NCBI RefSeq assembly: GCF_964204865.1
Contig: NC_135251.1
Span: 15,872,001-15,936,000 of the forward strand
Source: Styela clava
Taxonomy: Eukaryota; Chordata; Ascidiacea; Stolidobranchia; Styelidae
DNA length: 64,000 nt
Direction of reading: 5' to 3'
Shown here one piece after another: positions 28,171 to 49,849 of this stretch. Each line of letters begins with the position of its first letter. Positions within the stretch are counted from its first letter, which is position 1. The notes below the pieces were generated by a model, which was not told the origin of the DNA, searched no databases, and saw only the letters and a list, made by a program, of their open reading frames with translations. Position numbers and translations under genes: made by a program.

Positions 28171-28564
28171 CCTCTTTGTTCCGGAAAGGTTCAATTTGTA
28201 AAAAAGATCACGCATTAAAGAACATGTCCTTAGTTCCAAGGCAGACCGTAGCCCGGTTACCACAGCCGGTGGAGCGTCATTGTTCCGAGAAGATTAGATT
28301 GTGTATAGCTGGCGTTGGACATATCACAATGCAGAAACACACTTATATGTGTATTAGCTGCTAAAACAATGATTTTTACCATGTGTTATATCTTTTGTTT
28401 TAATGCAGACCGTAGCCCGGTTAGCTCAGTCGGTAGAGCGTTGGACTTTTTATCCAACGATCAAGGAGTCAAGTGCGCTAACACAAACACATTTATAATT
28501 GTATTAGCTGCTAAATCATAGATTTTTATCATCCGTTATGTCTTTTGCTTTAATGCGGACCGTG

Positions 28565-28637
28565 GCCCGGTTAGCTCAGTCGGTAGAGCGTTGGACTTTT
28601 AATCCAACGGTCAAGGGTTCAAGTCCCTTATCGGGCG
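28565..28637 (+). tRNA. tRNA-Lys-TTT: tRNA-Lys(TTT), identical to reference
   Basis: Full match; leader TGCGGACCGTG; trailer T3. Second member of the 1,743-bp duplication. Confidence 0.92.
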
Positions 28638-29287
28638 CCTCTTTGTTCCGGGAAGGTTCAATTTGTAAAAAAGATCACGCATTAAATAATACGCAGAACG
28701 TAGCCCGGTTACCACAGCCGGTGGAGCGTCTTTGTTCCGGGAAGATTAGATTGTGTATAAGCTGGCGTTGGACATAGCACAATGCATAAACACACTTATT
28801 TATACTTGTATTAGCTGCTAAATCATTCATTTTTATCATTTGTTATGTCTTTTGTTTTAATGCAGACCGTAGCCCGGTTAGCTCAATCGGTAGAGTGTTG
28901 AACTTTTTATCCAACGATCAAGTAGTCAAGTGCGCTATCGGGCGCCTCTTTGTTCCGGAAAGGTTCAATTTGTAAAAATAAATCACGCTGAGAAGATTCA
29001 CGTTAGATTGTGTATAGCTGGTGTTGGACATTGCACAATGCACAAACACACTTATAATTGTATTAGCTGCCTAATAAACAGATTCCGACGATCCGGTATG
29101 TGTTTCGTTTAACGCGGACCGTAGCCCGGTTAGCTCAGTCGGTAGAGCGTCTTTGTTCCGGGAAGATTGGATTGTGTATAGATGGCGTTGGACATATCAT
29201 AATGCAGAAACACACTTATATGTGTATTAGCTGCTAAAACATTGATTTTTACCATGTGTTATATCTTTTGTTTTCATGCAGACCGTA

Positions 29288-29360
29288 GCCCGGTTAGCTC
29301 AGTCGGTAGAGCGTTGGACTTTTAATCCAACGGTCAAGGGTTCAAGTCCCTTATCGGGCG
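29288..29360 (+). tRNA. tRNA-Lys-TTT: tRNA-Lys(TTT), identical; second empty-site relative
   Basis: Full match; flanks match the LINE-bearing units as at 27545. Trailer T3. Confidence 0.92.
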
Positions 29361-29833
29361 CCTCTTTGTTCCGGGAAGGTTCAATTTGTAAAAATGAACA
29401 CGCATTAAAGAATACGCAGCCGAAGCCCGGTTACCACAGCCGGTGGAGCGTCTTTGTTCCGGGAAGATTAGATTGCGTATAGCTGGCGTTGGACATAGCA
29501 CAAACACACTTATAATTGTATTAGCTGCTAAATCATTGATTTTTATCGTCCGTTATGTCTTTTGTTTTAATGCAGACCGTAGCCCGGTTAGCTCAAATGG
29601 TAGAGTGTTAAACTTTTTATCCAACGATCAAGGAGTCAAGTGCGCTATCGGGCGCCTCTTTGTTCCGGAAAGTTTCAATTTGTAAAAATAGATCACGCTG
29701 AGAAGATTAACGTTAGATTGTATACAGCTGGTGTTGGACATAGCACAATGCACAAACACACTTATAATTTTATTAGCTGCAACATTTTTCATTTTTATCA
29801 TCCGTTATGTCTTTTGTTTTAACGCGGACCGTA

Positions 29834-29906
29834 GCCCGGTTAGCTCAGTCGGTAGAGCGTTGGACTTTTAATCCAACGATCAAGGGTTCGAGTCCCTGAT
29901 CGGGCG
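29834..29906 (+). tRNA. tRNA-Lys-TTT: tRNA-Lys(TTT), CGATC/TTCGAGT/CCCTG variant with T7
   Basis: Shares CGATC and TTCGAGT with 17412, plus a mismatch at 49-65. Leader ACGCGGACCGTA; trailer T7. Confidence 0.65.
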
Positions 29907-30550
29907 CCTTTTTTTGCGGAAAGGATCTATTTGTAAAAAAGATCACGCAGTAAAGAATATGTCCTTAGTTCCAACGCAGACCGTAGCCCGATTACCACAG
30001 CCGGGGGAGCGTCTTTGTTTCGAGAAGATTATATTGTGTATAGCTGGCGATGGACATAGCACAATGCACAAACACACTTATAATAGTATTAGCTGCTAAT
30101 TCATTGATTTTTATCATCCGTCATGTCTTTTGTTTGACTGCACACCGTAGCCCGGTTAGCTCAGTCGGTAGAGCGTTAAACTTTTTATCCAACGATCAAG
30201 GAGTCAAGTGCGCTAACACAAACACACTTATAATTGTATTAGCTGCTAAATCATAGATTTTTATCGTCTGTTATGTCTTTTGTTTTAATGCAGACCGTAG
30301 CCCGGTTAGCTCAATCGGTGGAGTGTTAAACTTTTTATACAACGATCAAGGAGTCAAGTGCGCTATCGGGCGCCCTTTGTTCCGGAAATGTTCAATTTGT
30401 AAAAATAGATCACGCTGAGAAGATTAACGTTAGATTGTGTATAGCTGGTGTTGGACATAGCACAATGCACAAACACACTTATAATTGTATTAGCTGCAAA
30501 ATTTTTGATTTTTATCATCCGTTATGTCTTTTGTTTTAACGCGGACCGTA

Positions 30551-30623
30551 GCCCGGTTAGCTCAGTCGGAAGATCGTTGGACTTTTAATCCAACGGTCAA
30601 GGGTTCAAGTCCCTTATCGGGCA
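30551..30623 (+). tRNA. tRNA-Lys-TTT: tRNA-Lys(TTT), GGAAGATC variant with T7
   Basis: The D loop/stem reads CAGTCGGAAGATC (D-stem mismatch 11-24) and the discriminator is A. The same allele recurs at 35831, 52084 and 61639, tracking the higher-order repeat. Trailer T7. Confidence 0.55.
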
Positions 30624-30866
30624 CCTTTTTTTGCGGGAAGGATCTATTTGTAAAAAAGATCCCACAGTAAAGAATATGTCCTTAGTTCCAACACAGAACG
30701 TAGCCCGGTTACCACAGCCGGTGGAGCGTCTTTGTTCCGAGAAGATTAGGTTGTGTATTGCTGGCGATGGACGTAGCACAATGCACAAATACACCTATAA
30801 TTGTATTAGCTGCTAATTCATTGATTTTTATCATCCGTCATGTCTTTTGTTTGACTGCACACCGTA

Positions 30867-30939
30867 GCCCGGTTAGCTCAGTCGGTAGAGCGTTGGACTT
30901 TTAATCCAACGGTCAAGGGTTCAAGTCCCTTATCGGGCG
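30867..30939 (+). tRNA. tRNA-Lys-TTT: tRNA-Lys(TTT), identical to reference
   Basis: Full match; leader GACTGCACACCGTA; trailer T3. Confidence 0.92.
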
Positions 30940-31925
30940 CCTCTTTGTTCCGGGAAGGTTCAATTTGTAAAAAAGATCACGCATTAAAGAATATGTCCTT
31001 AGTTCCAACGCAGACCGTAGCCCGGTTACCACAGCCGGTGGGGCGTCTTTGTTCCGGGAAGATTAGATTGTGTATAGCTGGCGTTGGACATAGCAAAATG
31101 CACAAACACACTTATAATTGTATTAGCTGCTAAATCATTGACTTTTATCATCCGTTATATCTTTTGTTTCAATTAATGCAGACCGTAGCCCATTTTGCTC
31201 AATTGGTAAAGTGTTGAAATTTTCATCCAACGATCAAGGAGTCAAGTGCGCTATCGGGCGCCTCTTTGTTCCGGAATAGTTCAATTTGTAAAAATAGATC
31301 ACGCTGAGAAGATTAACGTTAGATTGTGTATAGCTGGTGTTGGACATAGCACAATGAACAATCACACTTATAATTGTATTAGCTGCTTAATAAACAGATC
31401 CCGACGATCCGGTATATGTTTCGTTTAACGCGGACCGTAGCCCGGTTAGCTCAGTCGGTAGAGTTACCTCAGTCGGTAGAGCGTCTTTGTTCCGGGAAGA
31501 TTGGATTGTGTATAGATGGCGTTGGACATAGCAAAATGCACAAACACACTTATAATTGTATTAGCTGCTAAATCGTTGACTTTTATCATCCGTTATGTCT
31601 TTTGATTTAATGCAGACCGTAGCCCGGTTAGCTCAATCGGTAGAGTGTTGAAATTTTTATCCAACGATCAAGGAGTCAAGTGCGCTATCGGGCGCCTCTT
31701 TGTTCCGGAAAGGTTCAATTTGTAAAAATAGGTCACGCTGAGAAGATTAACGTTAGATTGTGTATATCTGGTGTTGGACATAGCACAATGCACAAACACA
31801 CTTATTTATACTTGTATTAGCTGCTAAATCATTCATTTTTATCATTTGTTATGTCTTTTGTTTTAATGCAGACCGTAGCCCGGTTAGCTCAATCGGTAGA
31901 GTGTTGAACTTTTTATCCAACGATC

Positions 31926-32037
31926 CAACGATCTTCACCCTGAAATATGGCCAATTTATAATTTAATTTATTGCAATTTGTATGTTTGTGCCTATTTTAA
32001 GTATGGTTAGAAAAAAACTACTGATTACTGATTACTG
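31926..32037 (+). mobile_element. 112-bp retroposon-like insert in a type B pseudo-tRNA, copy 1
   Basis: Interrupts the B copy at 31878 between CCAACGATC and AAGTAGTC. It starts with a repeated CAACGATC and is AT-rich inside. It ends with a tandem CTGATTA tail (CTGATTACTGATTACTG), like the 3' tails of some CR1/L2-type LINEs or SINEs. No family recognised. Confidence 0.55.
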
Positions 32038-32403
32038 AAGTAGTCAAGTGCGCTATCGGGCGCCTCTTTGTTCCGGAAAGGTTCAATTTGTAAAAATAAA
32101 TCACGCTGAGAAGATTCACGTTAGATTGTGTATAGCTGGTGTTGGACATTGCACAATGCACAAACACACTTATAATTGTATTAGCTGCTTAATAAACAGA
32201 TTCCGACGATCTGGTATGTGTTTCGTAACGCGGACCGTAGCCCGGTCAGCTCAGTCGGTAGAGCATCTTTGTTCCGGGAAGATTGGATTGTGTATAGATG
32301 GCGTTGGACATATCACAATGCAGAAACACACTTATATGTGTATTAGCTGCTAAAACATTTATTTTTACTATCTGTTATATCTTTTGTTTTAATGCAGACC
32401 GTA

Positions 32404-32476
32404 CCCCGGTTAGCTCAGTCGGTAGAGCGTTGGACTTTTAATCCAACGGTCAAGGGTTCAAGTCCCTTATCGGGCG
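32404..32476 (+). tRNA. tRNA-Lys-TTT: tRNA-Lys(TTT), C1 variant with T7
   Basis: G1 is C, giving a C-C end mismatch that should impair 5' processing (inference). The rest is reference. Also at 48657 and 59417. Trailer T7. Confidence 0.6.
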
Positions 32477-32719
32477 CCTTTTTTTGCGGGAAGGATCAAT
32501 TTTTAAAAAAGATCACACAGTAAAGAATATGTCCTTATTTCCAACGCAGACCGTAGCCCGGTTACCACAGCCGGTGGAGCGTCTTTGTTCCGAGAAGATT
32601 AGATTGTGTATAGCTGGCGATTGACATAGCACAATGCACAAACCCACTTATAATTGTATTAGCTGCTAATTCATTGATTTTTATCATCCGTCATGTCTTT
32701 TGTTTGACTGCACACCGTA

Positions 32720-32785
32720 GCCCGGTTAGCTCAGTCGGTAGAGCGTTGGAATTTTAATCCAACGGTTAAGGGTTCAAGTCCCTTT
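32720..32785 (+). pseudogene. tRNA-Lys(TTT) lacking its acceptor 3' strand
   Basis: Loop ATTTTAA (C32 to A) and GGTTAAGG. After CCCTT the sequence jumps to TGTTCCGGG: a 14-bp deletion between short CTT repeats removed residues 66-73 and part of the trailer. It cannot form an acceptor stem. Repeated at 48973 and 59733. Confidence 0.75.
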
Positions 32786-33596
32786 GTTCCGGGAAGGTTC
32801 AATTTGTAAAAAAGATCACGCATTAAAGAATATGTCCTTTGTTCCAACGCAGACCGTAGCCCGGTTCCACAGCCGGTGGAGCGTCTTTGTTCCGGGAAGA
32901 TTAGATTGTGTATAGCTGGCGTTGGACATAGCAAAATGCACAAACACACTTATAATTGTTTTAGCTGCTAAATCATTGACTTTTATCATCCGTTATATCT
33001 TTTGTTTCAATTAATGCAGACCGTAGCCCGTTTAGCTCAATCGGTAGAGTGTTGAAATTTTCATCCAACGATCAAGGAGTCAAGTGCGCTATCGGGCGCC
33101 TCTTTGTTCCGGAATGGTTTAATTTTTAAAAAAGATCACGCATTAAAGAATATGTCCTTAGTTCCAACGCAGACCGTAGCCCGGTTACCACAGCCGGTGG
33201 AGCGTCTTTGTTCCGGGAAGATTAGATTGTGTATAGCTGGCGTTGGACATAGCAAAATGCACAAACACACTTATAATTGTATTAGCTGCTAAATCGTTGA
33301 CTTTTATCATCCGTTATGTCTTTTGATTTAATGCAGACCGTAGCCCGGTTAGCTCAATCGGTAGAATGTTGAAATTTTTATCCAACGATCAAGGAGTCAA
33401 GTGCGCTATCGGGCGCCTCTTTGTTCCGGAAAGTTTCAATTTGTGAAAATAGATCACGCAGAGAAGATTAACGTTAGATTGTATATAGCTGGTGTTGGAC
33501 ATAGCACAATGCACAAACACACTTATAATTGTGTTAGCTGCAAAATTTTTTCTTTTTTTATCATCCGTTATGTCTTTTGTTTTAACGCGGACCGTA

Positions 33597-33669
33597 GCCC
33601 GGTTAGCTCAGTCGGTAGAGCGTTGGACTTTTAATCCAACGGTCAAGGGTTCAAGTCCCTTATCGGGCG
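33597..33669 (+). tRNA. tRNA-Lys-TTT: tRNA-Lys(TTT), identical to reference, with T7 terminator
   Basis: Full match plus trailer CCTTTTTTTGCGG. It is one of only three copies that combine a perfect tRNA with a perfect Pol III terminator (also 44048 and 49850). Leader ACGCGGACCGTA. Confidence 0.95.
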
Positions 33670-33912
33670 CCTTTTTTTGCGGGAAGGATCTATTTGTAAA
33701 AAAGATCCCGCAGTAAAGAATATGTCCTTAGTTCCAACACAGGACGTAGTCCGGTTACCACAGCCGGTGGAGCGTCTTTGTTCCGAGAAGATTAGATTGT
33801 GTATAGCTGGCGATGGACGTAGCACAATGCACAAATACACTTATAATTGTATTAGCTGCTAATTCATTGATTTTTATCATCCGTCATGTCTTTTGTTTGA
33901 CTGCACACCGTA

Positions 33913-33985
33913 GCCCGGTTAGCTCAGTCGGTAGAGCGTTGGACTTTTAATCCAACGGTCAAGGGTTCAAGTCCCTTATCGGGCG
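33913..33985 (+). tRNA. tRNA-Lys-TTT: tRNA-Lys(TTT), identical to reference
   Basis: Full match; leader GACTGCACACCGTA; the next copy is exactly 317 bp downstream. Trailer T3. Confidence 0.92.
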
Positions 33986-34229
33986 CCTCTTTGTTCCGGG
34001 AAGGTTCAATTTGTAAAAAAGATCACGCATTAAAGAATATGTCCATAGTTCCAACGCAGACCGTAGCCCGGTTACCACAGCCGGTGGAGCGTCTTTGTTC
34101 AGAGAAGATTAGATTGTGTATAGCTGGCGATGGACGTAGCACAATGCACAAACACACTTATAATTGTATTAGCTGCTAATTCATTGATTTTTATCATCCG
34201 TCATGTCTATTGTTTGACTGCACACCGTA

Positions 34230-34302
34230 GCCCGGTTAGCTCAGTCGGTAGAGCGTTGGACTTTTAATCCAACGGTCAAGGGTTCAAGTCCCTTATCGGG
34301 CG
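34230..34302 (+). tRNA. tRNA-Lys-TTT: tRNA-Lys(TTT), identical to reference
   Basis: Full match; leader GACTGCACACCGTA preceded by TCTATTG. Trailer T3. Confidence 0.92.
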
Positions 34303-34798
34303 CCTCTTTGTTCCGGGAAGGTTCAATTTGTAAAAAAGATCACGCATTAAAGAATATGTCCTTAGTTCCAACGCAGACCGTAGCCCGGTTACCACAGCCG
34401 GTGGAGCGTCTTTGTTCCGGGAAGATTAGATTGTGTATAGCTTGCGTTGGACATAGCAAAATGCACAAACACACTTATAATTGTATTAGCTGCTAAATCA
34501 TTGATTTTTATCGTCCGTTATGTCTTTTGTTTTAATGCAGACCGTAGCCCGCTTAGCTCAAATGGTAGAGTGTTAAACTTTTTATCCAACGATCAAGGAG
34601 TCAAGTGCGCTATCGGGCGCCTCTTTGTTCCGGAAAGTTTCAATTTGTAAAAATAGATCACGCTGAGAAGATTAACGTTAGATTGTATACAGCTGGTGTT
34701 GGACATAGCACAATGCACAAACACACTTATAATTTTATTAGCTGCAACATTTTTCATTTTTATCATCCGTTATGTCTTTTGTTTTAACGCGGACCGTA

Positions 34799-34871
34799 GC
34801 CCGGTTAGCTCAGATGGTAGAGCGTTGGACTTTTAATCCAACGATCAAGGGTTCAAGTCCCTGATCGGGCG
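34799..34871 (+). tRNA. tRNA-Lys-TTT: tRNA-Lys(TTT), CAGATGG/CGATC variant with T7
   Basis: D loop CAGATGG, variable CGATC, T-stem base mismatch (CCCTG). Duplicate at 51052 has the normal D loop. Trailer T7. Confidence 0.6.
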
Positions 34872-35830
34872 CCTTTTTTTGCGGAAAGGATCTATTTGTA
34901 AAAAAGATCACGCAGTAAAGAATATGTCCTTAGTTCCAACGCAGACGTAGCCCGGTTACCACAGCCGCTGGAGCGTCTTTGTTCCGAGAAGATTAGATTG
35001 TGTATAGCTGGCGATAGACATAGCACAATGCAAAACACACTTATAATTGTGTTAGCTGCTAAATCATTGATTTTTATAATCCGTTATGTCTTTGGTTTTA
35101 ATGCAGACCGTAGCCCAGTTAGTTCAATCGGTAGAGTGTTGAAATTTTCATCCAACGATCAAGGAGTCAAGTGCGCTATCGGGCGCCTCTTTGTTCTGGA
35201 AAGGTTCAATTTTTAAAAAAGATCACGCATTAAAGACTATGTCCTTAGTTCCAACGCAGACCGTAGCCCGATTACCACAGCCGGGGGAGCGTCTTTGTTT
35301 CGAGAAGATTATATTGTGTATAGCTGGCGATGGACATAGCACAATGCACAAACACACTTATAATAGTATTAGCTGCTAATTCATTGATTTTTATCATCCG
35401 TCATGTCTTTTGTTTGACTGCACACCGTAGCCCGGTTAGCTCAGTCGGTAGAGCGTTAAACTTTTTATCCAACGATCAAGGAGTCAAGTGCGCTAACACA
35501 AACACACTTATAATTGTATTAGCTGCTAAATCATAGATTGTTATCGTCTGTTATGTCTTTTGTTTTAATGCAGACCGTAGCCCGGTTAGCTCAATCGGTG
35601 GAGTGTTAAACTTTTTATACAACGATCAAGGAGTCAAGTGCGCTATCGGGCGCCCTTTGTTCCGGAAATGTTCAATTTGTAAAAATAGATCACGCTGAGA
35701 AGATTAACGTTAGATTGTGTATAGCTGGTGTTGGACATAGCACAATGCACAAACACACTTATAATTGTATTAGCTGCAAAATTTTTGATTTTTATCATCC
35801 GTTATGTCTTTTGTTTTAACGCGGACCGTA

Positions 35831-35903
35831 GCCCGGTTAGCTCAGTCGGAAGATCGTTGGACTTTTAATCCAACGGTCAAGGGTTCAAGTCCCTTATCGG
35901 GCA
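35831..35903 (+). tRNA. tRNA-Lys-TTT: tRNA-Lys(TTT), GGAAGATC variant with T7
   Basis: Same allele as 30551, 5,280 bp downstream of it. Trailer T7. Confidence 0.55.
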
Positions 35904-36146
35904 CCTTTTTTTGCGGGAAGGATCTATTTGTAAAAAAGATCCCGCAGTAAAGAATATGTCCTTAGTTCCAACACAGAACGTAGCCCGGTTACCACAGCCG
36001 GTGGAGCGTCTTTGTTCCGAGAAGATTAGGTTGTGTATTGCTGGCGATGGACGTAGCACAATGCACAAATACACCTATAATTGTATTAGCTGCTAATTCA
36101 TTGATTTTTATCATCCGTCATGTCTTTTGTTTGACTGCACACCGTA

Positions 36147-36219
36147 GCCCGGTTAGCTCAGTCGGTAGAGCGTTGGACTTTTAATCCAACGGTCAAGGGT
36201 TCAAGTCCCTTATCGGGCG
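36147..36219 (+). tRNA. tRNA-Lys-TTT: tRNA-Lys(TTT), identical to reference
   Basis: Full match; 5,280-bp partner of 30867. Trailer T3. Confidence 0.92.
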
Positions 36220-37205
36220 CCTCTTTGTTCCGGGAAGGTTCAATTTGTAAAAAAGATCACGCATTAAAGAATATGTCCTTAGTTCCAACGCAGACCGTAG
36301 CCCGGTTACCACAGCCGGTGGGGCGTCTTTGTTCCGGGGAGATTAGATTGTGTATAGCTGGCGTTGGACATAGCAAAATGCACAAACACACTTATAATTG
36401 TATTAGCTGCTAAATCATTGACTTTTATCATCCGTTATATCTTTTGTTTCAATTAATGCAGACCGTAGCCCATTTTGCTCAATTGGTAAAGTGTTGAAAT
36501 TTTCATCCAACGATCAAGGAGTCAAGTGCGCTATCGGGCGCCTCTTTGTTCCGGAATAGTTCAATTTGTAAAAATAGATCACGCTGAGTAGATTAACGTT
36601 AGATTGTGTATAGCTGGTGTTGGACATAGCACAATGAACAATCACACTTATAATTGTATTAGCTGCTTAATAAACAGATTCCGACGATCCGGTATATGTT
36701 TCGTTTAACGCGGACCGTAGCCCGGTTAGCTCAGTCGGTAGAGTTACCTCAGTCGGTAGAGCGTCTTTGTTCCGGGAAGATTGGATTGTGTATAGATGGC
36801 GTTGGACATAGCAAAATGCACAAACACACTTATAATTGTATTAGCTGCTAAATCGTTGACTTTTATCATCCGTTATGTCTTTTGATTTAATGCAGACCGT
36901 AGCCCGGTTAGCTCAATCGGTAGAGTGTTGAAATTTTTATCCAACGATCAAGGAGTCAAGTGCGCTATCGGGCGCCTCTTTGTTCCGGAAAGGTTCAATT
37001 TGTAAAAATAGGTCACGCTGAGAAGATTAACGTTAGATTGTGTATATCTGGTGTTGGACATAGCACAATGCACAAACACACTTATTTATACTTGTATTAG
37101 CTGCTAAATCATTCATTTTTATCATTTGTTATGTCTTTTGTTTTAATGCAGACCGTAGCCCGGTTAGCTCAATCGGTAGAGTGTTGAACTTTTTATCCAA
37201 CGATC

Positions 37206-37317
37206 CAACGATCTTCACCCTGAAATATGGCCAATTTATAATTTAATTTATTGCAATTTGTATGTTTGTGCCTATTTTAAGTATGGTTAGAAATAAACTA
37301 CTGATTACTGATTACTG
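37206..37317 (+). mobile_element. 112-bp retroposon-like insert, copy 2
   Basis: Same insert and flanks, 5,280 bp downstream of copy 1, with GAAATAAAC where copy 1 has GAAAAAAAC. It lies about 370 bp before LINE copy 1. Confidence 0.55.
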
Positions 37318-37671
37318 AAGTAGTCAAGTGCGCTATCGGGCGCCTCTTTGTTCCGGAAAGGTTCAATTTGTAAAAATAAATCACGCTGAGAAGATTCACG
37401 TTAGATTGTGTATAGCTGGTGTTGGACATTGCACAATGCACAAACACACTTATAATTGTATTAGCTGCTTAATAAACAGATTCCGACGATCCGGTATGTG
37501 TTTCGTAACGCGGACCGTAGCCCGGTCAGCTCAGTCGGTAGAGCATCTTTGTTCCGGGAAGATTGGATTGTGTATAGATGGCGTTGGACATATCACAATG
37601 CAGAAACACACTTATATGTGTATTAGCTGCTAAAACATTGATTTTTACCATGTGTTATATCTTTTGTTTTA

Positions 37672-38832
37672 ATGCAGACCGTAGCCCGGTTAGCTCAGTC
37701 GGTAGAGCGTTGGACTTTAAATCCAAAAAGATTTGATATACTAATCAATGAAGGGAAAGCGGAAAACATGATCGAAATCAAAAGGCTAAAATCGCAGATC
37801 GAGATAATTCAAGATGAACGAAACAAAAGGGACATACTAATGGCAAAAATGAAAAACCTTGAAGAAGGGGAAAGGCCCACCAAAACCTTTTCTGAAAAAA
37901 TCCGGCGCAGATCTAGGCAAACAACAATAGAAGAGCTGGTGACAAATGACCAAAATGTAAAAACAAATCCCGGGGAGATCATATCAATAGTAGAAAGTTT
38001 CTATAAGAACCTATGGGGCAAAGAGAATATAATGCAAGAACAATACCAAAATCGTTATCTAAACTTAATGGGCTCTTCTAAAATTGCAGATGAGGATAAT
38101 ATCATACTAGAAAGTTATATCTCACAAGAAGAGGTATATAGGGCGATAAAATTTATGGGAAACGATAAATCCCCAGGATTTGATGGTCTATCCAAAGAAT
38201 TCTACCTGACCTTCTGGAACTCTATTAAAAAGCAATTTACTCAACTTATGAATAACATATTATATTTCGGCCAAATACCAAAATCTGCTACCATAGCGAA
38301 AGTTAAATTAGTATACAAGAAGGGAGACAAAACAAATTTAAAAAATTGGAGGCCAATCACAACGCTCAATGCAGACTATAAAATCCTATCAAGAATCCTT
38401 GTTAAACGATTAGAACCAGTACTAAACAAAATCATAAGTCCATCCCAGAAATGCGCACTCAAGCAAAGATGTATGGAAGATGTTCATTATAATATAGACG
38501 CTATAATTAGACACTGCAAAATGAAAAATATCCCCGGATCACTAATAATAATAGACAATCTTAAAGCTTTTGATAGAGTGAATCATGACTTCTTATTTAA
38601 AATTTTACATCAAATTGGACTTGGAAATAGAATCTCAAAAGCAATTAAAAGCATGTATTACGGAATTAAAAGTCAGGTAGATGTAAACGGTAGACTCACG
38701 CAGGAAATCGATATTAGACAAGGATGCCCGTTAAGTATGCTTCTCTACGCCATCAATATAGAGCCCCTAGCAAGATCGGTACAATTAAATGCCAATATAC
38801 ATGGTATCCAACTGGGGAGATACGAGCATTAA
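37672..38832 (+). pseudogene. LINE copy 1 ORF2-like frame, 5' part, ending at a premature stop
   Basis: The frame starts in the tRNA leader and runs to TAA at 38830-38832, where copy 2 has AAA (Lys). The stop falls just before the FADD active site, so this copy cannot make a complete reverse transcriptase. The frame remains open after the stop to 40224. This single substitution is the only disabling change I see between copies. Confidence 0.9.
37684..37726 (+). pseudogene. 5' half of a tRNA-Lys split by LINE copy 1
   Basis: Reads from GCCCGG through GGACTTTAAATCCAA, then enters LINE sequence. The A box is intact. The loop is CTTTAAA instead of CTTTTAA, i.e. anticodon position 36 is A. The 3' half is at 40685-40725. 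Confidence 0.9.
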
Positions 38833-40224
38833 CTCGATCAGTTTGCTGATGATATCACGTTCGCAGTTAGAGATCAATTATCTATTACAGAAATCTTTCA
38901 CGAGCTAGACAATTTCCATTTAGCAACAGGACAAAAAATAAATAAAGATAAGACCGAAGTTCTCTGTATTACAAAAGAATCGCATAATTTAGTGAACAAT
39001 TCGCCACATGGGAACTACATAAAACAAAACACCATAATACTTGGAATACAATTTGGAAATATGGACTTAAACAATATGTGGCAGGTAATCGAAAATAAGA
39101 TGATACGAACCCTAAATTACGTTAAGCTGCGAAACCTCACCTGGTATGGTAAACTGATATCAATCAACTCCATGATTATGTCTGTCATAATCTTCCATAC
39201 GAGAGTAAAGAGAATCCCGAAAACGTATATAAAGAAAATCGAGAGTGCGCTGTTTAAGTTCCTCTGGCACCCGCAAAAGATAGAGGCCATTAGCAGAAAA
39301 TCGCTACAAAGAATGTGGAACGATGGTGGGATCAATATGATTGATGTTGATGCAAAAATAAAGGCATGTGCAGTGGAAAAAATGAGATACATCGTGGGTA
39401 ACGAACCCCTAACTCAATTTTGGCAAACAGAGGCATTATACTCTTTGGGATCCAGAGTCAAGCAAATTAACAAGGATAGATACACCAACTCAATGCCCCA
39501 CAGCAATACTATTCCAGAGCAATGGGCATACATCCTCGACATCTATAAAGAATTGAATTTCTCGCAATCCACCTGGGAGGTTGCAAGACATAAAGACCTG
39601 TACATGAAATTGAAGAACAACAGGACAGCCAAAGACAAACAACAGCTGCTGAATGTGAATTGGGAAGAAGCTCACCTATTTAACCATGATTATAAAAATA
39701 AGTTTACTAACGCGGAACGAATAATCTCGTATCGCATTATAAGAGAGGGGTACATATTCGGCGATCGCTTGAGGGGAATGTCCCTCAGGTATGATGCTCT
39801 CGGAAACTTAAAAATATTAGGCTGCAAATTTTGCAAAGGGCCTGTAGACAATACAGGACATATAATTATAAACTGTAAATCAACGAGGAAATATGCGGTA
39901 AAACTTTTAAAAATTCTTAACAGCGTACTAAGCAACTCCATCAAAATAACTCTAAAGGAAATATTCTACAATAGTTACAGGGGGCATAACCGAATAGTAG
40001 TCACCAAATGTTATGTAATATGGAAAAAGAACTTAATTGGCACCAAAATAAGACTGGATATCCAAAATAAATATTTGTCCCCTATGGACGATGACATAAT
40101 TTCAAAAACAATATCTCACTTTACACAATTTTTAAACACAATGGAGAACACTTTTACTAACCTTAATTTTCTCGGAATAGTAAATAACTGGAAGGAGATC
40201 CTAAATGGATATTCAGCTACATAA
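38833..40224 (+). pseudogene. LINE copy 1 ORF2-like frame, 3' part
   Basis: Continues in the same frame with the FADD motif, thumb region and the CX2CX8HX4C knuckle, ending at TAA 40222-40224. A Met at 38992 could start a 410-residue fragment lacking the catalytic palm. Confidence 0.85.
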
Positions 40225-40384
40225 CGCAATCCACCATAAACAAAAGCATATCTGCCCAAGTGGACTCTGCAATTTTATTCATTTTTTATGTCGGAAATAC
40301 CATCACATATTAAGCGGACGTGATGAATCGGAAGCTTCACGGTGGATGTCATGCTGTGTGCGTGTTAAGCGTCACGCAGTATGT

Positions 40385-40516
40385 ACGGAAGCCGGGGGCG
40401 GAAGTTGAGCTATGCTATGCATGGTGCAGACGGAAGCCCTGGGCGAAAGTTATGCTGTGACATACAGTGTATACCGAACCCCGGGGTGGAAGTTTGTGCT
40501 GTGCAATGGCGCGGCA
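40385..40516 (+). repeat. Three imperfect ~44-bp repeats in the LINE 3' UTR
   Basis: Repeats start at 40385, 40430 and 40473, each with a core like ACGGAAGCCGGGGGCGGAAG followed by TATGCTGTG-like sequence. They are GC-rich in an AT-rich element. LINE 3' UTRs often carry the RT-recognition structure; a role here is only inference. Confidence 0.6.
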
Positions 40517-40644
40517 GATACTGAAGCCTCCATAAGTTTATGACTGCTGCTTATGCAGTGGCATGCTTATGAAGCGTTATACCGATATGACACGGATATG
40601 ACGTGGCATTAGACACTGATCTGTGCCTTGGAAAATTCTGATCC

Positions 40645-40677
<33 letters not shown>

Positions 40678-40684
40678 ATAATAA

Positions 40685-40725
40685 TTTAAATCCAACGGTC
40701 AAGGGTTCAAGTCCCTTATCGGGCG
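40685..40725 (+). pseudogene. 3' half of the tRNA-Lys split by LINE copy 1
   Basis: TTTAAATCCAACGG continues through an intact T arm (B box GGTTCAAGTCC) and ATCGGGCG. Linker AAAAATGAACACGC follows, as at 27545 and 29288. Confidence 0.9.
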
Positions 40726-41573
40726 CCTCTTTGTTTCGGGAAGGTTCAATTTGTAAAAATGAACACGCCGTAGCCGTAGCCCGGTTACCACAGCCGGTGG
40801 AGCGTCTTTGTTCCGAGAAGATTAGATTGTGTATAGCTGGCGATGGACATAGCACAATGCACAAACACACTTATAATTGTGTTAGCTGCTAAATCATTGA
40901 TTTTTATCATCCGTCATGTCTTTTGTTTGACTGCACACCGTAGCCCGGTTACCACAGCCGGTGGAGCGTCTTTGTTCGGGGAAGATTAGATTGTGTATAG
41001 CTGGTGTTGGACATAGCAAATTGCACAAACACACTTATAATTGTATTAGCTGCTAAATCATTGACTTTTATCATCCGTTATGTCTTTGGTTTTAATGCAG
41101 ACCGTATCCCAGTTAGTTCAATCGGTAGAGTGTTGAAATTTTCATCCAACGATCAAGGAGTTAAGTGCGCTATCGGGCGCCTCTTTGTTCCGGAAAGGTT
41201 CAATTTTTAAAAATGATCACGCATTAAAGACTATGTCCTTAGTTCCAACGCAGACCGTAGCCCGATTACCACAGCCGGGGGAGCGTCTTTGTTCCGAGAA
41301 GATTATATTGTGTATAGCTGGCGATGGACATAGCACAATGCACAAACACACTTATAATAGTATTAGCTGCTAATTCATTGATTTTTATCATCCGTCATGT
41401 CTTTTGTTTGACTGCACACCGTAGCCCGGTTAGCTCAGTCGGTAGAGCGTTAAACTTTTTATCCAACGATCAAGGAGTCAAGTGCGCTAACACAAACACA
41501 CTTATAATTGTATTAGCTGCTAAATCATAGATTTTTATCATCCGTCATGTCTTTTGCTTCAATGCGGACCGTG

Positions 41574-41646
41574 GCCCGGTTAGCTCAGTCGGTAGAGCGT
41601 TGGACTTTTAATCCAACGGTCAAGGGTTCAAGTCCCTTATCGGGCG
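41574..41646 (+). tRNA. tRNA-Lys-TTT: tRNA-Lys(TTT), identical to reference
   Basis: Full match; leader TGCGGACCGTG after CTTTTGCTTC. Trailer T3. Confidence 0.92.
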
Positions 41647-42296
41647 CCTCTTTGTTCCGGGAAGGTTCAATTTGTAAAAAAGATCACGCATTAAATAATA
41701 CGCAGACCGTAGCCCGGTTACCACAGCCGGTGGAGCGTCTTTGTTCCGGGAAGATTAGATTGTGTATAAGCTGGCGTTGGACATAGCCCAATGCATAAAC
41801 ACACTTATTTATACTTGTATTAGCTGCTAAATCATTCATTTTTATCATTTGTTATGTCTTTTGTTTTAATGCAGACCGTAGCCCGGTTAGCTCAATCGGT
41901 AGAGTGTTGAACTTTTTATCCAACGATCAAGTAGTCAAGTGCGCTATCGGGCGCCTCTTTGTTCCGGAAAGGTTCAATTTGTAAAAATAAATCACGCTGA
42001 GAAGATTCACGTTAGATTGTGTATAGCTGGTGTTGGACATTGCACAATGCACAAACACACTTATAATTGTATTAGCTGCCTAATAAACAGATTCCGACGA
42101 TCCGGTATGTGTTTCGTTTAACGCGGACCGTAGCCCGGTTAGCTCAATCGGTAGAGCGTCTTTGTTCCGGGAAGATTGGATTGTGTATAGATGGCGTTGG
42201 ACATATCACAATGCAGAAACACACTTATATGTGTATTAGCTGCTAAAACATTGATTTTTACCATGTGTTATATCTTTTGTTCTAATGCAGACCGTA

Positions 42297-42369
42297 GCCC
42301 GGTTAGCTCAGTCGGTAGAGCGTTTGACTTTTAATCCAACGGTCAAGGGTTCAAGTCCCTTATCGGGCG
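42297..42369 (+). tRNA. tRNA-Lys-TTT: tRNA-Lys(TTT), anticodon-stem variant
   Basis: GCGTTTGAC puts T29 opposite C41. Its duplicate at 58549 has the reference base, so the change post-dates the duplication. Trailer T3. Confidence 0.7.
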
Positions 42370-42849
42370 CCTCTTTGTTCCGGGAAGGTTCAATTTGTAA
42401 AAATGAACACGCATTAAAGAATACGCAGCCGTAGACCGGTTACCACAGCCGGTGGAGCGTCTTTGTTCCGGGAAGATTAGATTGCGTATAGCTGGAGTTG
42501 GACATAGCACAATTCACAAACACACTTATAATTGTATTAGCTGCTAAATCATTGATTTTTATCTTCCGTTATGTCTTTTGTTTTAATGCAGACCGTAGCC
42601 CGGTTAGCTCAATCGGTAGAGTGTTAAACTTTTTATCCAACGATCAAGGAGTCAAGTGCGCTATCGGGCGCCTCTTTGTTCCGGAAAGTTTCAATTTGTA
42701 AAAATAGATCACGCTGAGAAGATTAACGTTAGATTGTATACAGCTGGTGTTGGACATAGCACAATGCACAAACACACTTATAATTGTATTAGCTGCAAAA
42801 TTTTTCATTTTTTTCATCCGTTATGTCTTTTGTTTTAACGCGGACCGTA

Positions 42850-42922
42850 GCCCGTTTAGCTCAGTCGGTAGAGCGTTAGAATTTTAATCCAACGGTCAAG
42901 GGTTCAAGTCCCTGATCGGGCG
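42850..42922 (+). pseudogene. Damaged tRNA-Lys(TTT) with T7 terminator
   Basis: G6 to T in the acceptor, anticodon stem TTAGA/TCCAA (mismatch), loop ATTTTAA (C32 to A) and T-stem CCCTG. Four structural changes make a functional tRNA unlikely. Also at 59102. Confidence 0.6.
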
Positions 42923-44047
42923 CCTTTTTTTGCGGAAAGGATCTATTTGTAAAAAAGATCACGCAGTAAAGAATATGTCCTTAGTTCCAACGCAGACGTA
43001 GCCCGGTTACCACAGCCGCTGGAGCGTCTTTGTTCCGAGAAGATTAGATTGTGTATAGCTGGCGATGGACATAGCACAATGCACAAACACACTTATAATT
43101 GTGTTAGCTGCTAAATCATTGATTTTTATCATCCGTCATGTCTTTTGTTCGACTGCACACCGTAGCCCGGTTACTACAGCCGGTGGAGCGTCTTTGTTCC
43201 GGGAAGATTAGACTGTTTATAGCTGGTGTTGGACATAGCAAATTGCACAAACACACTTATAATTGTATTAGCTGCTAAATCATTGACTTTTATCATCCGT
43301 TATGTCTTTGGTTTTAATGCAGACCGTAGCCCAGTTAGTTCAATCAGTAGAGTGTTGAAATTTTCATCCAACGATCAAGGAGTCAAGTGCGCTATCGGGC
43401 GCCTCTTTGTTCCGGAAAGGTTCAATTTTTGAGAAAGATCACGCATTAAAGACTATGTCCTTAGTTCCAACGCAGACCGTAGCCCGATTACCACAGCCGG
43501 GGGAGCGTCTTTGTTCCGAGAAGATTATATTGTGTATAGCTGGCGATGGACATAGCACAATGCACAAACACACTTATAATAGTATTAGCTGCTAATTCAT
43601 TGATTTTTATCATCCGTCATGTCTTTTGTTTGACTGCACACCGTAGCCCGGTTAGCTCAGTCGGTAGAGCGTTAAACTTTTTATCCAACGATCAAGGAGT
43701 CAAGTGCGCTAACACAAACACACTTATAATTGTATTAGCTGCTAAATCATAGATTTTTATCGTCTGTTATGTCTTTTGTTTTAATGCAGACCGTAGCCCG
43801 GTTAGCTCAATCGGTGGAGTGTTAAACTTTTTATACAACGATCAAGGAGTCAAGTGCGCTATCGGGCGCCTCTTTGTTCCGGAAATGTTCAATTTGTAAA
43901 AATAGATCACGCTGAGAAGATTAACGTTAGATTGTGTATAGCTGGTGTTGGACATAGCACAATGCACAAACACACTCATAATTGTATTAGCTGCAAAATT
44001 TTTGATTTTTATCATCCGTTATGTCTTTTGTTTTAACGCGGACCGTA

Positions 44048-44120
44048 GCCCGGTTAGCTCAGTCGGTAGAGCGTTGGACTTTTAATCCAACGGTCAAGGG
44101 TTCAAGTCCCTTATCGGGCG
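44048..44120 (+). tRNA. tRNA-Lys-TTT: tRNA-Lys(TTT), identical to reference, with T7 terminator
   Basis: Full match, leader ACGCGGACCGTA, trailer T7. First tRNA of the 1,669-bp repeat, copy 1. Confidence 0.95.
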
Positions 44121-44363
44121 CCTTTTTTTGCGGGAAGGATCTATTTGTAAAAAAGATCCCGCAGTAAAGAATATGTCCTTAGTTCCAACACAGAACGTAG
44201 TCCGGTTACCACAGCCGGTGGAGCGTCTTTGTTCCGAGAAGATTAGATTGTGTATAGCTGGCGATGGACGTAGCACAATGCACAAATACACTTATAATTG
44301 TATTAGCTGCTAATTCATTGATTTTTATCATCCGTCATGTCTTTTGTTTGACTGCACACCGTA

Positions 44364-44436
44364 GCCCGGTTAGCTCAGTCGGTAGAGCGTTGGACTTTTA
44401 ATCCAACGGTCAAGGGTTCAAGTCCCTTATCGGGCG
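44364..44436 (+). tRNA. tRNA-Lys-TTT: tRNA-Lys(TTT), identical to reference
   Basis: Full match; second tRNA of the 1,669-bp repeat, copy 1; leader GACTGCACACCGTA; trailer T3. Confidence 0.92.
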
Positions 44437-44680
44437 CCTCTTTGTTCCGGGAAGGTTCAATTTGTAAAAAAGATCACGCATTACAGAATATGTCCATAGT
44501 TCCAACGCAGACCGTAGCCCGGTTACCACAGCCGGTGGAGCGTCTTTGTTCCGAAAAGATTAGATTGTGTATAGCTGGCGATGGACGTAGCACAATGCAC
44601 AAACACAGTTATAATTGTATTAGCTGCTAATTCATTGATTTTTATCATCCGTCATATCTATTGTTTGACTGCACACCGTA

Positions 44681-44753
44681 GCCCGGTTAGCTCAGTCGGT
44701 AGAGCGTTGGACTTTTAATCCAACGGTCAAGGGTTCAAGTCCCTTATCGGGCG
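44681..44753 (+). tRNA. tRNA-Lys-TTT: tRNA-Lys(TTT), identical to reference
   Basis: Full match; third tRNA of the 1,669-bp repeat, copy 1; trailer T3. Confidence 0.92.
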
Positions 44754-45716
44754 CCTCTTTGTTCCGGGAAGGTTCAATTTGTAAAAAAGATCACCCATTA
44801 AAGAATATGTCCTTAGTTCCAACGCAGACCGTAGCCCGGTTACCACAGCCGGTGGAGCGTCTTTGTTCCGGGAAGATTAGATTGTGTATAGCTGGTGTTG
44901 GACATAGCAAATTGCACAAACACACTTATAATTTTATTAGCTGCTAAATCATTGACTTTTATCATCCGTTATGTCTTTGGTTTTAATGCAGACCGTAGCC
45001 CAGTTAGTTCAATCAGTAGAGTGTTGAAATTTTCATCCAACGATCAAGGAGTCAAGTGCGCTATCGGGCGCCTCTTTGTTCCGGAAAGGTTCAATTTTTG
45101 AGAAAGATCACGCATTAAAGACTATGTCCTTAGTTCCAACGCAGACCGTAGCCCGATTACCACAGCCGGGGGAGCGTCTTTGTTCCGAGAAGATTATATT
45201 GTGTATAGCTGGCGATGGACATAGCACAATGCACAAACACACTTATAATAGTATTAGCTGCTAATTCATTGATTTTTATCATCCGTCATGTCTTTTGTTT
45301 GACTGCACACCGTAGCCCGGTTAGCTCAGTCGGTAGAGCGTTAAACTTTTTATCCAACGATCAAGGAGTCAAGTGCGCTAACACAAACACACTTATAATT
45401 GTATTAGCTGCTAAATCATAGATTTTTATCGTCTGTTATGTCTTTTGTTTTAATGCAGACCGTAGCCCGGTTAGCTCAATCGGTGAAGTGTTAAACTTTT
45501 TATACAACGATCAAGGAGTCAAGTGCGCTATCGGGCGCCTCTTTGTTCCGGAAATGTTCAATTTGTAAAAATAGATCACGCTGAGAAGATTAACGTTAGA
45601 TTGTGTATAGCTGGTGTTGGACATAGCACAATGCACAAACACACTCATAATTGTATTAGCTGCAAAATTTTTGATTTTTATCATCCGTTATGTCTTTTGT
45701 TTTAACGCGGACCGTA

Positions 45717-45789
45717 GCCCGGTTAGCTCAGTCGGTAGAGCGTTGGACTTTTAATCCAACGGTCAAGGGTTCAAGTTCCTTATCGGGCG
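45717..45789 (+). tRNA. tRNA-Lys-TTT: tRNA-Lys(TTT), one T-stem wobble, T7 terminator
   Basis: TCCTT for CCCTT makes a G-T pair at 53-61 and touches the B box. Repeat copy 2 of 44048. Trailer T7. Confidence 0.8.
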
Positions 45790-46032
45790 CCTTTTTTTGC
45801 GGGAAGGATCTATTTGTAAAAAAGATCCCGCAGTAAAGAATATGTCCTTAGTTCCAACACAGAACGTAGTCCGGTTACCACAGCCGGTGGAGCGTCTTTG
45901 TTCCGAGAAGATTAGATTGTGTATAGCTGGCGATGGACGTAGCACAATGCACAAATACACTTATAATTGTATTAGCTGCTAATTCATTGATTTTTTTCAT
46001 CCGTCATGTCTTTTGTTTGACTGCACACCGTA

Positions 46033-46105
46033 GCCCGGTTAGCTCAGTCGGTAGAGCGTTGGACTTTTAATCCAACGGTCAAGGGTTCAAGTCCCTTATC
46101 GGGCG
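46033..46105 (+). tRNA. tRNA-Lys-TTT: tRNA-Lys(TTT), identical to reference
   Basis: Full match; repeat copy 2 of 44364; trailer T3. Confidence 0.92.
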
Positions 46106-46349
46106 CCTCTTTGTTCCGGGAAGGTTCAATTTGTAAAAAAGATCACGCATTACAGAATATGTCCATAGTTCCAACGCAGACCGTAGCCCGGTTACCACAG
46201 CCGGTGGAGCGTCTTTGTTCCGAAAAGATTAGATTGTGTATAGCTGGCGATGGACGTAGCACAATGCACAAACACACTTATAATTGTATTAGCTGCTAAT
46301 TCATTGATTTTTATCATCCGTCATATCTATTGTTTGACTGCACACCGTA

Positions 46350-46422
46350 GCCCGGTTAGCTCAGTCGGTAGAGCGTTGGACTTTTAATCCAACGGTCAAG
46401 GGTTCAAGTCCCTTATCGGGCG
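46350..46422 (+). tRNA. tRNA-Lys-TTT: tRNA-Lys(TTT), identical to reference
   Basis: Full match; repeat copy 2 of 44681; trailer T3. Confidence 0.92.
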
Positions 46423-47385
46423 CCTCTTTGTTCCGGGAAGGTTCAATTTGTAAAAAAGATCACCCATTAAAGAATATGTCCTTAGTTCCAACGCAGACCG
46501 TAGCCCGGTTACCACAGCCGGTGGAGCGTCTTTGTTCCGGGAAGATTAGATTGTGTATAGCTGGTGTTGGACATAGCAAATTGCACAAACACACTTATAA
46601 TTTTATTAGCTGCTAAATCATTGACTTTTATCATCCGTTATGTCTTTGGTTTTAATGCAGACCGTAGCCCAGTTAGTTCAATCAGTAGAGTGTTGAAATT
46701 TTCATCCAACGATCAAGGAGTCAAGTGCGCTATCGGGCGCCTCTTTGTTCCGGAAAGGTTCAATTTTTGAGAAAGATCACGCATTAAAGACTATGTCCTT
46801 AGTTCCAACGCAGACCGTAGCCCGATTACCACAGCCGGGGGAGCGTCTTTGTTCCGAGAAGATTATATTGTGTATAGCTGGCGATGGACATAGCACAATG
46901 CACAAACACACTTATAATAGTATTAGCTGCTAATTCATTGATTTTTATCATCCGTCATGTCTTTTGTTTGACTGCACACCGTAGCCCGGTTAGCTCAGTC
47001 GGTAGAGCGTTAAACTTTTTATCCAACGATCAAGGAGTCAAGTGCGCTAACACAAACACACTTATAATTGTATTAGCTGCTAAATCATAGATTTTTATCG
47101 TCTGTTATGTCTTTTGTTTTAATGCAGACCGTAGCCCGGTTAGCTCAATCGGTGAAGTGTTAAACTTTTTATACAACGATCAAGGAGTCAAGTGCGCTAT
47201 CGGGCGCCTCTTTGTTCCGGAAATGTTCAATTTGTAAAAATAGATCACGCTGAGAAGATTAACGTTAGATTGTGTATAGCTGGTGTTGGACATAGCACAA
47301 TGCACAAACACACTCATAATTGTATTAGCTGCAAAATTTTTGATTTTTATCATCCGTTATGTCTTTTGTTTTAACGCGGACCGTA

Positions 47386-47458
47386 GCCCGGTTAGCTCAG
47401 TCGGTAGAGCGTTGGACTTTTAATCCAACGGTCAAGGGTTCAAGTTCCTTATCGGGCG
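47386..47458 (+). tRNA. tRNA-Lys-TTT: tRNA-Lys(TTT), one T-stem wobble, T5 terminator
   Basis: Same TCCTT allele as 45717; trailer CCTTTTTCTGCGG (T5). Repeat copy 3. Confidence 0.8.
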
Positions 47459-47701
47459 CCTTTTTCTGCGGGAAGGATCTATTTGTAAAAAAGATCCCGC
47501 AGTAAAGAATATGTCCTTAGTTCCAACACAGAACGTAGTCCGGTTACCACAGCCGGTGGAGCGTCTTTGTTCCGAGAAGATTAGATTGTGTATAGCTGGC
47601 GATGGACGTAGCACAATGCACAAATACACTTATAATTGTATTAGCTGCTAATTCATTGATTTTTTTCATCCGTCATGTCTTTTGTTTGACTGCACACCGT
47701 A

Positions 47702-47774
47702 GCCCGGTTAGCTCAGTCGGTAGAGCGTTGGACTTTTAATCCAACGGTCAAGGGTTCAAGTCCCTTATCGGGCG
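47702..47774 (+). tRNA. tRNA-Lys-TTT: tRNA-Lys(TTT), identical to reference
   Basis: Full match; repeat copy 3 of 44364; trailer T3. Confidence 0.92.
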
Positions 47775-48018
47775 CCTCTTTGTTCCGGGAAGGTTCAATT
47801 TGTAAAAAAGATCACGCATTACAGAATATGTCCATAGTTCCAACGCAGACCGTAGCCCGGTTACCACAGCCGGTGGAGCGTCTTTGTTCCGAAAAGATTA
47901 GATTGTGTATAGCTGGCGATGGACGTAGCACAATGCACAAACACACTTATAATTGTATTAGCTGCTAATTCATTGATTTTTATCATCCGTCATATCTATT
48001 GTTTGACTGCACACCGTA

Positions 48019-48091
48019 GCCCGGTTAGCTCAGTCGGTAGAGCGTTGGACTTTTAATCCAACGGTCAAGGGTTCAAGTCCCTTATCGGGCG
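48019..48091 (+). tRNA. tRNA-Lys-TTT: tRNA-Lys(TTT), identical to reference
   Basis: Full match; repeat copy 3 of 44681; trailer T3. Confidence 0.92.
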
Positions 48092-48656
48092 CCTCTTTGT
48101 TCCGGGAAGGTTCAATTTGTAAAAAAGATCACCCATTAAAGAATATGTCCTTAGTTCCAACGCAGACCGTAGCCCGGTTACCACAGCCGGTGGAGCGTCT
48201 TTGTTCCGGGAAGATTAGATTGTGTATAGCTGGCGTTGGACATAGCAAAATGCACAAACACACTTATAATTGTATTAGCTGCTAAATCATTGACTTTTAT
48301 CATCCGTTATATCTTTTGTTCCAATTAATGCAGACCGTAGCCCATTTAGCTCAATCGGTAGAGTGTTAAAATTTTCATCCATCGATCAAGGAGTCAAGTG
48401 CGCTATCGGGTGCCTCTTTGTTCCGGAATGGTTTAATTTTTAAAAAAGATCACGCATTAAAGAATATGTCCTTAGTTCCAACGCAGACTGTAGCCCGATT
48501 ACCACAGCCGGGGGAGCGTCTTTGTTCCGGGAAGATTAGATTGTGTATAGCTGGCGTTGGACATATCACAATGCAGAAACACACTTATATGTGTATTAGC
48601 TGCTAAAACATTTATTTTTACTATATGTTATATCTTTTGTTTTAATGCAGACCGTA

Positions 48657-48729
48657 CCCCGGTTAGCTCAGTCGGTAGAGCGTTGGACTTTTAATCCAAC
48701 GGTCAAGGGTTCAAGTCCCTTATCGGGCG
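48657..48729 (+). tRNA. tRNA-Lys-TTT: tRNA-Lys(TTT), C1 variant with T7
   Basis: Same G1 to C allele as 32404, 16,253 bp upstream. Trailer T7. Confidence 0.6.
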
Positions 48730-48972
48730 CCTTTTTTTGCGGGAAGGATCAATTTTTAAAAAAGATCACAGAGTAAAGAATATGTCCTTATTTCCAACGC
48801 AGACCGTAGCCCGGTTACCACAGCCGGTGGAGCGTCTTTGTTCCGAGAAGATTAGATTGTGTATAGCTGGCGATTGACATAGCACAATGCACAAACCCAC
48901 TTATAATTGTATTAGCTGCTAATTCATTGATTTTTATCATCCGTCATGTCTTTTGTTTGACTGCACACCGTA

Positions 48973-49038
48973 GCCCGGTTAGCTCAGTCGGTAGAGCGTT
49001 GGAATTTTAATCCAACGGTTAAGGGTTCAAGTCCCTTT
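48973..49038 (+). pseudogene. tRNA-Lys(TTT) lacking its acceptor 3' strand, second copy
   Basis: Same 14-bp deletion and C32 to A change as at 32720. Confidence 0.75.
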
Positions 49039-49849
49039 GTTCCGGGAAGGTTCAATTTGTAAAAAAGATCACGCATTAAAGAATATGTCCTTTGTTCCAA
49101 CGCAGACCGTAGCCCGGTTCCACAGCCGGTGGAGCGTCTTTGTTCCGGGAAGATTAGATTGTGTATAGCTGGCGTTGGACATAGCAAAATGCACAAACAC
49201 ACTTATAATTGTTTTAGCTGCTAAATCATTGACTTTTATCATCCGTTATATCTTTTGTTTCAATTAATGCAGACCGTAGCCCGTTTAGCTCAATCGGTAG
49301 AGTGTTGAAATTTTCATCCAACGATCAAGGAGTCAAGTGCGCTATCGGGCGCCTCTTTGTTCCGGAATGGTTTAATTTTTAAAAAAGATCACGCATTAAA
49401 GAATATGTCCTTAGTTCCAACGCAGACCGTAGCCCGGTTACCACAGCCGGTGGAGCGTCTTTGTTCCGGGAAGATTAGATTGTGTATAGCTGGCGTTGGA
49501 CATAGCAAAATGCACAAACACACTTATAATTGTATTAGCTGCTAAATCGTTGACTTTTATCATCCGTTATGTCTTTTGATTTAATGCAGACCGTAGCCCG
49601 GTTAGCTCAATCGGTAGAATGTTGAAATTTTTATCCAACGATCAAGGAGTCAAGTGCGCTATCGGGCGCCTCTTTGTTCCGGAAAGTTTCAATTTGTGAA
49701 AATAGATCACGCAGAGAAGATTAACGTTAGATTGTATATAGCTGGTGTTGGACATAGCACAATGCACAAACACACTTATAATTGTGTTAGCTGCAAAATT
49801 TTTTCTTTTTTTATCATCCGTTATGTCTTTTGTTTTAACGCGGACCGTA

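Follow-up and report, generated by a model that had tools for sequence, protein, structure and literature searches.

The 64,000-nt stretch of Styela clava DNA analysed here (the window) holds a tandem array of tRNA-Lys genes. Read from the sequence, a 2.96-kb 5'-truncated LINE lies within the anticodon loop of one of them, at 37684-40727 (Table 1). The first-pass annotation had described a LINE at this position with both tRNA halves preserved and an 11-bp target-site duplication; re-reading the junctions confirmed both points, and ARAGORN recovers a complete tRNA when the window flanks are joined. Its range of 37684-40725 falls 2 bp short of the end of the tRNA.

Table 1. Features of the split tRNA-Lys gene and its array (window coordinates)
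Feature	Position	Strand	Basis or remark
Tandem tRNA-Lys array around the insertions, 68 intact tRNA-Lys-TTT	10721..62028	+	ARAGORN
tRNA-Lys 5' part (positions 1-43, with target-site duplication)	37684..37726	+	sequence, ARAGORN
Target-site duplication, left copy, 11 bp, TTTAAATCCAA	37716..37726	+	
5'-truncated LINE copy 1, 2958 bp, in the orientation of the tRNA	37727..40684	+	
3' part of ORF2: RT and C-terminal CCHC-like region	37727..40224	+	
3' UTR and poly(A) tail (29 A, then TAATAATAA)	40225..40684	+	
Target-site duplication, right copy, TTTAAATCCAA	40685..40695	+	
tRNA-Lys 3' part	40685..40727	+	sequence, ARAGORN
Copy 2 of the window insertion, amplified array	53937..56979	+	99.7% over unit
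Copy 3 of the window insertion, interrupted by window end	63492..64000	+	

The ORF2 remnant of copy 1 has one in-frame stop (38830-38832), and that of copy 2, whose duplications lie at 53969 and 56937, is open for 860 codons if the flanking frame is counted in. The split gene is a variant with the anticodon TTA rather than TTT (37712, 53965 and 63520). Within the window, GGACTTTAAATCC occurs at the three insertion sites only, while GGACTTTTAATCC occurs 57 times. The TTA variant and the 11-bp duplication are common to the three window copies and to two more just past the window. The likeliest reading of all five is a single insertion that multiplied along with the array, and the earlier view that the three window copies descend from a single event is thus borne out by their common junctions. 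The TTA anticodon is probably older than the insertion because both duplications carry it; such an anticodon would decode the stop codon UAA. Inspection by eye of 10300-63000 also found numerous truncated units in the array, in which the D arm is directly joined to the trailer TCTTTGTTCCGGGAAG.

Intact copies of the element elsewhere in the genome are about 5.65 kb long and encode ORF1 and ORF2, both open at four loci (L010, L011, L012 and L013). The L010 element spans 5654 bp, with ORF1 starting at 122, and its proteins measure 488 aa (ORF1) and 1160 aa (ORF2). In a single ORF2 frame, Pfam places an APE-type endonuclease (PF03372, 5.3e-10) N-terminal to the RT (PF00078, 6.2e-29); it gives no other family in ORF2, and no restriction-like endonuclease was found after the RT. 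A full-length copy with the endonuclease domain, proposed earlier as something to look for, is therefore present. The nearest solved structure to ORF2 is LINE-1 ORF2p (2.5e-65 over residues 4-894, versus 1.1e-24 for R2), so that the suggested placement on the L1/Tx1 side stands at the level of the L1 group. The element is an APE-type non-LTR retrotransposon of that group. ORF1 gives a zf-CCHC match of 18.8 bits, under the cut-off of 20.8, with Cys/His columns conserved in a second subfamily (B, see below); CCHC zinc knuckles are typical of ORF1 in Tx1-clade elements. Pol III is an unlikely promoter for the full element, since its sense strand has 20 runs of at least four T and the B box is left downstream of the insert. 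The 3' UTR (40290-40646) is 88-89% identical to that of other subfamilies (L020/L021), against about 68-70% for coding DNA, a contrast that hints at constraint or at recombination of the 3' end.

The 376.6-Mb assembly was searched with two queries, and all resulting counts are lower bounds. The interrupted locus (37684-40725) gave 58 matches from the best 40 of 479 candidates, and the 3' UTR gave 41 matches from the best 40 of 185. Copies were counted at ≥98% identity, with fragments included and merged, and insertion events were defined by common junctions. Among the matches listed, at least 20 copies reduce to 11 events; with the 3' UTR query, at least 17 listed sites reach 99% identity and the next match falls to 89%. 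The listed copies lie in the Lys array (five), on C10 (five), C13 (four) and C9 (two), with single copies on C4, C5, C18 and at a second C2 place (C2:9428622). The events comprise Lys-TTT (the window array, five copies), Cys (four copies), Ser-GCT (L011), Lys-CTT (L013), two in Val genes (L009 on C4 and L014 on C5), a Glu/Ile spacer (L010, L012 and L027, which have one 3' junction in common), Glu (L015), Trp (an internal piece in L017), Ser-AGA (L018) and L016. This last copy, on C18, sits in a simple repeat without a tRNA, has lost its 3' end and offers no usable junction at either side; the other ten of these 11 listed events fall within tRNA gene clusters. Single events were multiplied in the Lys array (five copies), the Cys array (four) and on C13 (three). 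A further suggestion, that the array serves as a renewable landing pad, is compatible with these data as an idea, but copy number is low (at least 20 in 11 events) and array amplification itself produced several of the copies.

Flanks were compared with those of older relatives as a control. Among 17 rows of young copies (16 distinct), 13 flanks match a tRNA and four do not (L010, L012, L027 and L015). For L011 and L013 the best match in this comparison is a neighbouring tRNA, and their own halves are shown by the ARAGORN joins. The 3' flanks of older relatives match a tRNA in 3 of 23 cases and none in the remaining 20, and ARAGORN found no tRNA around eight relatives (L019-L026; 72,408 bases).

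The junctions themselves locate the target. Among the matches listed, the poly(A) 3' end lies inside a tRNA gene in six of the seven events that retain poly(A). Offsets were measured from the first base of the anticodon to the target base that adjoins the tail, with a few bases ambiguous at tails that abut A or T. They are -10 (Lys-CTT), -6 (Cys), -2 and -2 (the two Val genes), -1 (the window insertion) and +2 (Ser-GCT); in the second subfamily they are -10 (Ile) and -9 (Pro). Joining the flanks restores an intact tRNA, as judged by ARAGORN, in four of the five Lys-array copies tested, in all four Cys copies, in Ser-GCT and Lys-CTT, and, as Ile-AAT, in a second-subfamily copy: five events in all. 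Where both junctions are intact and poly(A) is present, the duplications measure 6, 7, 8 and 11 bp. Both Val events have a tRNA 3' junction and lack a clean duplication; at L009 the 5' junction falls in another Val gene than the 3' junction, and at L014 the 5' flank is not a tRNA half. The seventh poly(A) event sits some 100 bp past tRNA-Glu, in a spacer, with the duplication TAAAGAATA and three amplified copies. In L015, the internal piece in L017 and L018 the 5' junction falls in a Glu, a Trp and a Ser-AGA half, respectively; all three lack a proper 3' end, so their evidence comes from the 5' junctions. Specificity for tRNA genes is not absolute, as the event downstream of Glu and L016 illustrate.

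The 121-nt leader of the intact copies consists largely of tRNA 5' halves (Lys, Ser-GCT and Thr), with pieces assigned by eye and by exact string match. In L009, L010 and L012 its first 19 nt are tRNA-Lys sequence, with one mismatch in L010 and L012. The next 40 nt match tRNA-Ser-GCT exactly; an unassigned stretch follows, and a 19-nt exact match to tRNA-Thr then precedes the start of ORF1. L009 (in the Val cluster) and L010/L012 (in the Glu/Ile spacer) are two independent insertions that share the same first base; L013 and L015 start further in, without the Lys and Ser pieces. Exact matches to the Thr string number 105 across the genome; of 100 listed, 99 lie on C9 (18.86-19.18 Mb), and the one of them that was read (L055) is tRNA-Thr-AGT. 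The Ser/leader junction of the three copies, TAATCC-T(A/G)AACCTTACTAT, is also that of L011, where the element does split a tRNA-Ser-GCT gene and the Ser piece is the host gene. As this junction also exists at a real target, we read the Ser piece as captured target DNA. The most economical history has a copy in tRNA-Ser being transcribed from a start inside that gene's half, then entering a tRNA-Lys gene and being copied again; the order is uncertain, as L011 could be a descendant of one that already bore the Ser piece and went back into a Ser gene. The second subfamily provides an independent case: L050 begins with a tRNA-Ile 5' part that is host flank at L048. At L013 the 5' junction falls within 13 nt, GGTAGAGCGTTGG, common to leader and target.

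The second subfamily is 49% identical to the window family in ORF1 and 51-53% over residues 1-450 of ORF2. Six of its copies are among the matches listed: two in tRNA genes (an exact insertion in tRNA-Ile, and one in tRNA-Pro with 5' and 3' parts both present), one (L035/L049) in an array of tRNA-Asp genes and three (L036/L050, L037 and L039) at sites where no tRNA was recognised. The Asp array (L049, C8:1400300-1404300) contains repeated 5' halves that end at the anticodon loop. L050/L036 was considered as a further tRNA gene and rejected, as ARAGORN found none in the joined site, where there is a B-box-like string only. In an unrooted ORF2 tree the two tRNA subfamilies do not group together, and the second groups with L020/L021 (support 0.975); one common origin of tRNA targeting and repeated origins are both compatible with such a tree. 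L020/L021 were themselves rejected as site-specific, with no common target found.

Other relatives are associated with other multicopy genes. Four loci (L023, L024, L026 and L047) have a common end point in a tandem repeat with the exon-like end ATTAAG followed by GTAAG/GTGAG, and the duplications there are TTCTGGAGCC (L023) and TTCTGGAGC (L026). At L023, L024 and L026, tandem spliced-leader-like repeats carry several LINE insertions just past the 5' splice site. A search for the relatives' target returned no Rfam match in 13 sources, so we call these repeats spliced-leader-like on the strength of their recurring exon-like end and the GTAAG after it. That end, ATTCGCTATTTGATTAAG, resembles the spliced leader of Ciona, ATTCTATTTGAATAAG (PMC7986045), which points to a tunicate as the likely host. 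By eye and from translations, histone start codons directly follow two of the LINE relatives, that of H4 at L019 (8681-9801) and that of H1 at L046; after the H1 start, L046 has a further piece with a spliced-leader-like string and LINE leader-like sequence. L022 is 81% identical to the window family (first 450 residues of ORF2) and its leader contains a spliced-leader-like piece.

These data support the conclusion that the young element targets tRNA genes generally, not tRNA-Lys. We consider it very probable that an L1-group APE LINE uses target-primed reverse transcription to enter tRNA genes of many isotypes, landing between the A and B boxes and mostly in the anticodon arm. ORF2p would nick the bottom strand in that arm, and the element's transcript would start upstream, within the 5' half of the host tRNA gene, so that each round could add the host tRNA 5' half to the element's 5' end. 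With less confidence, we suggest that the element may reach tRNA genes through tethering to their chromatin or to Pol III machinery, or through a relaxed recognition of the conserved D-arm region; either is preferred over one strict cleavage sequence because the nick wanders over 13 bp and the sequence varies. The first pass suggested that the LINE may target tRNA-Lys; the window copies, L013 and the Lys piece in the leader all agree with a LINE that is specific for tRNA-Lys and cuts its anticodon loop by strict sequence recognition. Such strictness is next to untenable given that Cys, Ser-GCT and two Val genes also carry copies and that cut positions span 13 bp; the empty sites of Cys and Ser-GCT recovered by the ARAGORN joins already refute it, and halves of Glu, Trp and Ser-AGA genes form the 5' junctions of broken copies. 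The genome-wide flank check, also proposed there, did find independent copies in tRNA genes, so that what survives of that proposal is the targeting of tRNA genes as such. Very improbable, too, is random insertion, with tRNA arrays over-represented since insertions there are harmless and amplified. Amplification is real (five Lys-array, four Cys-array and three C13 copies), but after collapsing it tRNA genes on C2, C4, C5, C9, C10 and C13 are still used, with junctions at most 13 bp apart in tRNA coordinates. Six of seven by chance would have a probability of about 1e-11 if tRNA genes made up 1% of the genome (an assumed share), and copies that are 98-99% identical leave little time for the loss of other insertions.

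How the target is found and how the leader arose admit further readings. It is quite possible, if short of an even chance, that ORF2p/ORF1p recognize D-arm DNA directly (such as GGTAGAGCG) and nick at a variable distance downstream, without Pol III factors. Lys-CTT, Ile and Pro are cut almost alike just past the D arm (-10, -10 and -9), and the relatives' cut in spliced-leader-like genes, where a tRNA-type promoter is lacking, always falls at one site; yet Val and Ser genes, whose D arms are unlike that of Lys in sequence, are used as well, and the nick sequences share little. The leader halves might instead stem from the RT jumping onto tRNAs or their fragments as template, and not from a transcribed interrupted gene. 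Short, stacked pieces (19 nt of Lys before 40 nt of Ser) fit this, as does the fact that tRNA halves are abundant RNAs. We think it improbable nonetheless, as the Ser/leader junction of L009, L010 and L012 equals the genomic junction of L011 and the Ile/leader junction in L050 equals that at L048. Speculative, and on balance unlikely, is the notion that the LINE keeps a growing stack of captured halves as a leader and uses it. D-arm sequence common to tRNA genes would let freshly made cDNA pair with the upstream half, whichever tRNA gene is entered, and close the 5' junction, so that target capture would make the element fit for many tRNA genes; the L013 junction is compatible with this. Related subfamilies would have switched among spliced-leader-like, histone and tRNA genes, with the leader as a record of the path (L022).

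Site-specific non-LTR elements usually have one exact target; among elements tied to tRNA genes, Dewa (Tx1 group) and TRE5-A are of the APE type. Dewa, a zebrafish LINE, is reported from a tRNA-Leu spacer (PMC3706591). It resembles the window family in its tie to tRNA genes and differs in using the spacer of one isotype, whereas six of seven poly(A) events of the window family lie inside genes, none of them Leu, and one in a Glu spacer. NeSL-1_TV (tRNA-Pro), LIN15_SM (tRNA-Arg) and LIN25_SM (tRNA-Glu) are described in PMC4640811 as tRNA-gene-specific non-LTR elements; these are NeSL-related, with a restriction-like endonuclease and one isotype each, in contrast to the APE endonuclease and the at least five isotypes used by the one family here. 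TRE5-A of Dictyostelium, by protein interaction, inserts at a distance beside tRNA genes (PMC3706591); it likewise uses many tRNA genes, but beside them, where the window family goes inside. Dada DNA transposons do insert inside tRNA and snRNA genes (PMC3706591 and PMC8869645), with a DDE transposase and one tRNA kind per family. Co-transcription with upstream target sequence is a trait of R1/R2, and R2 is transcribed together with its upstream 28S target (PMC3414825); in R2 a ribozyme trims the 5' end, whereas in the window family the upstream target pieces stay and stack. Non-LTR elements of tRNA genes are thus already known, and the window family is a further variant, not a new kind. Our search of the open-access literature found no report of an APE-type LINE residing within tRNA genes of several kinds; a relative may be catalogued in Repbase.

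What the window family adds is an L1-type enzyme that works within the tRNA gene itself, in one region of many such genes. With relatives in the same genome on other multicopy genes, it forms part of a natural series for following how L1-type enzymes gain, widen and change their targets, and the tRNA pieces in its leader give the order of past targets, a record that is rarely available.
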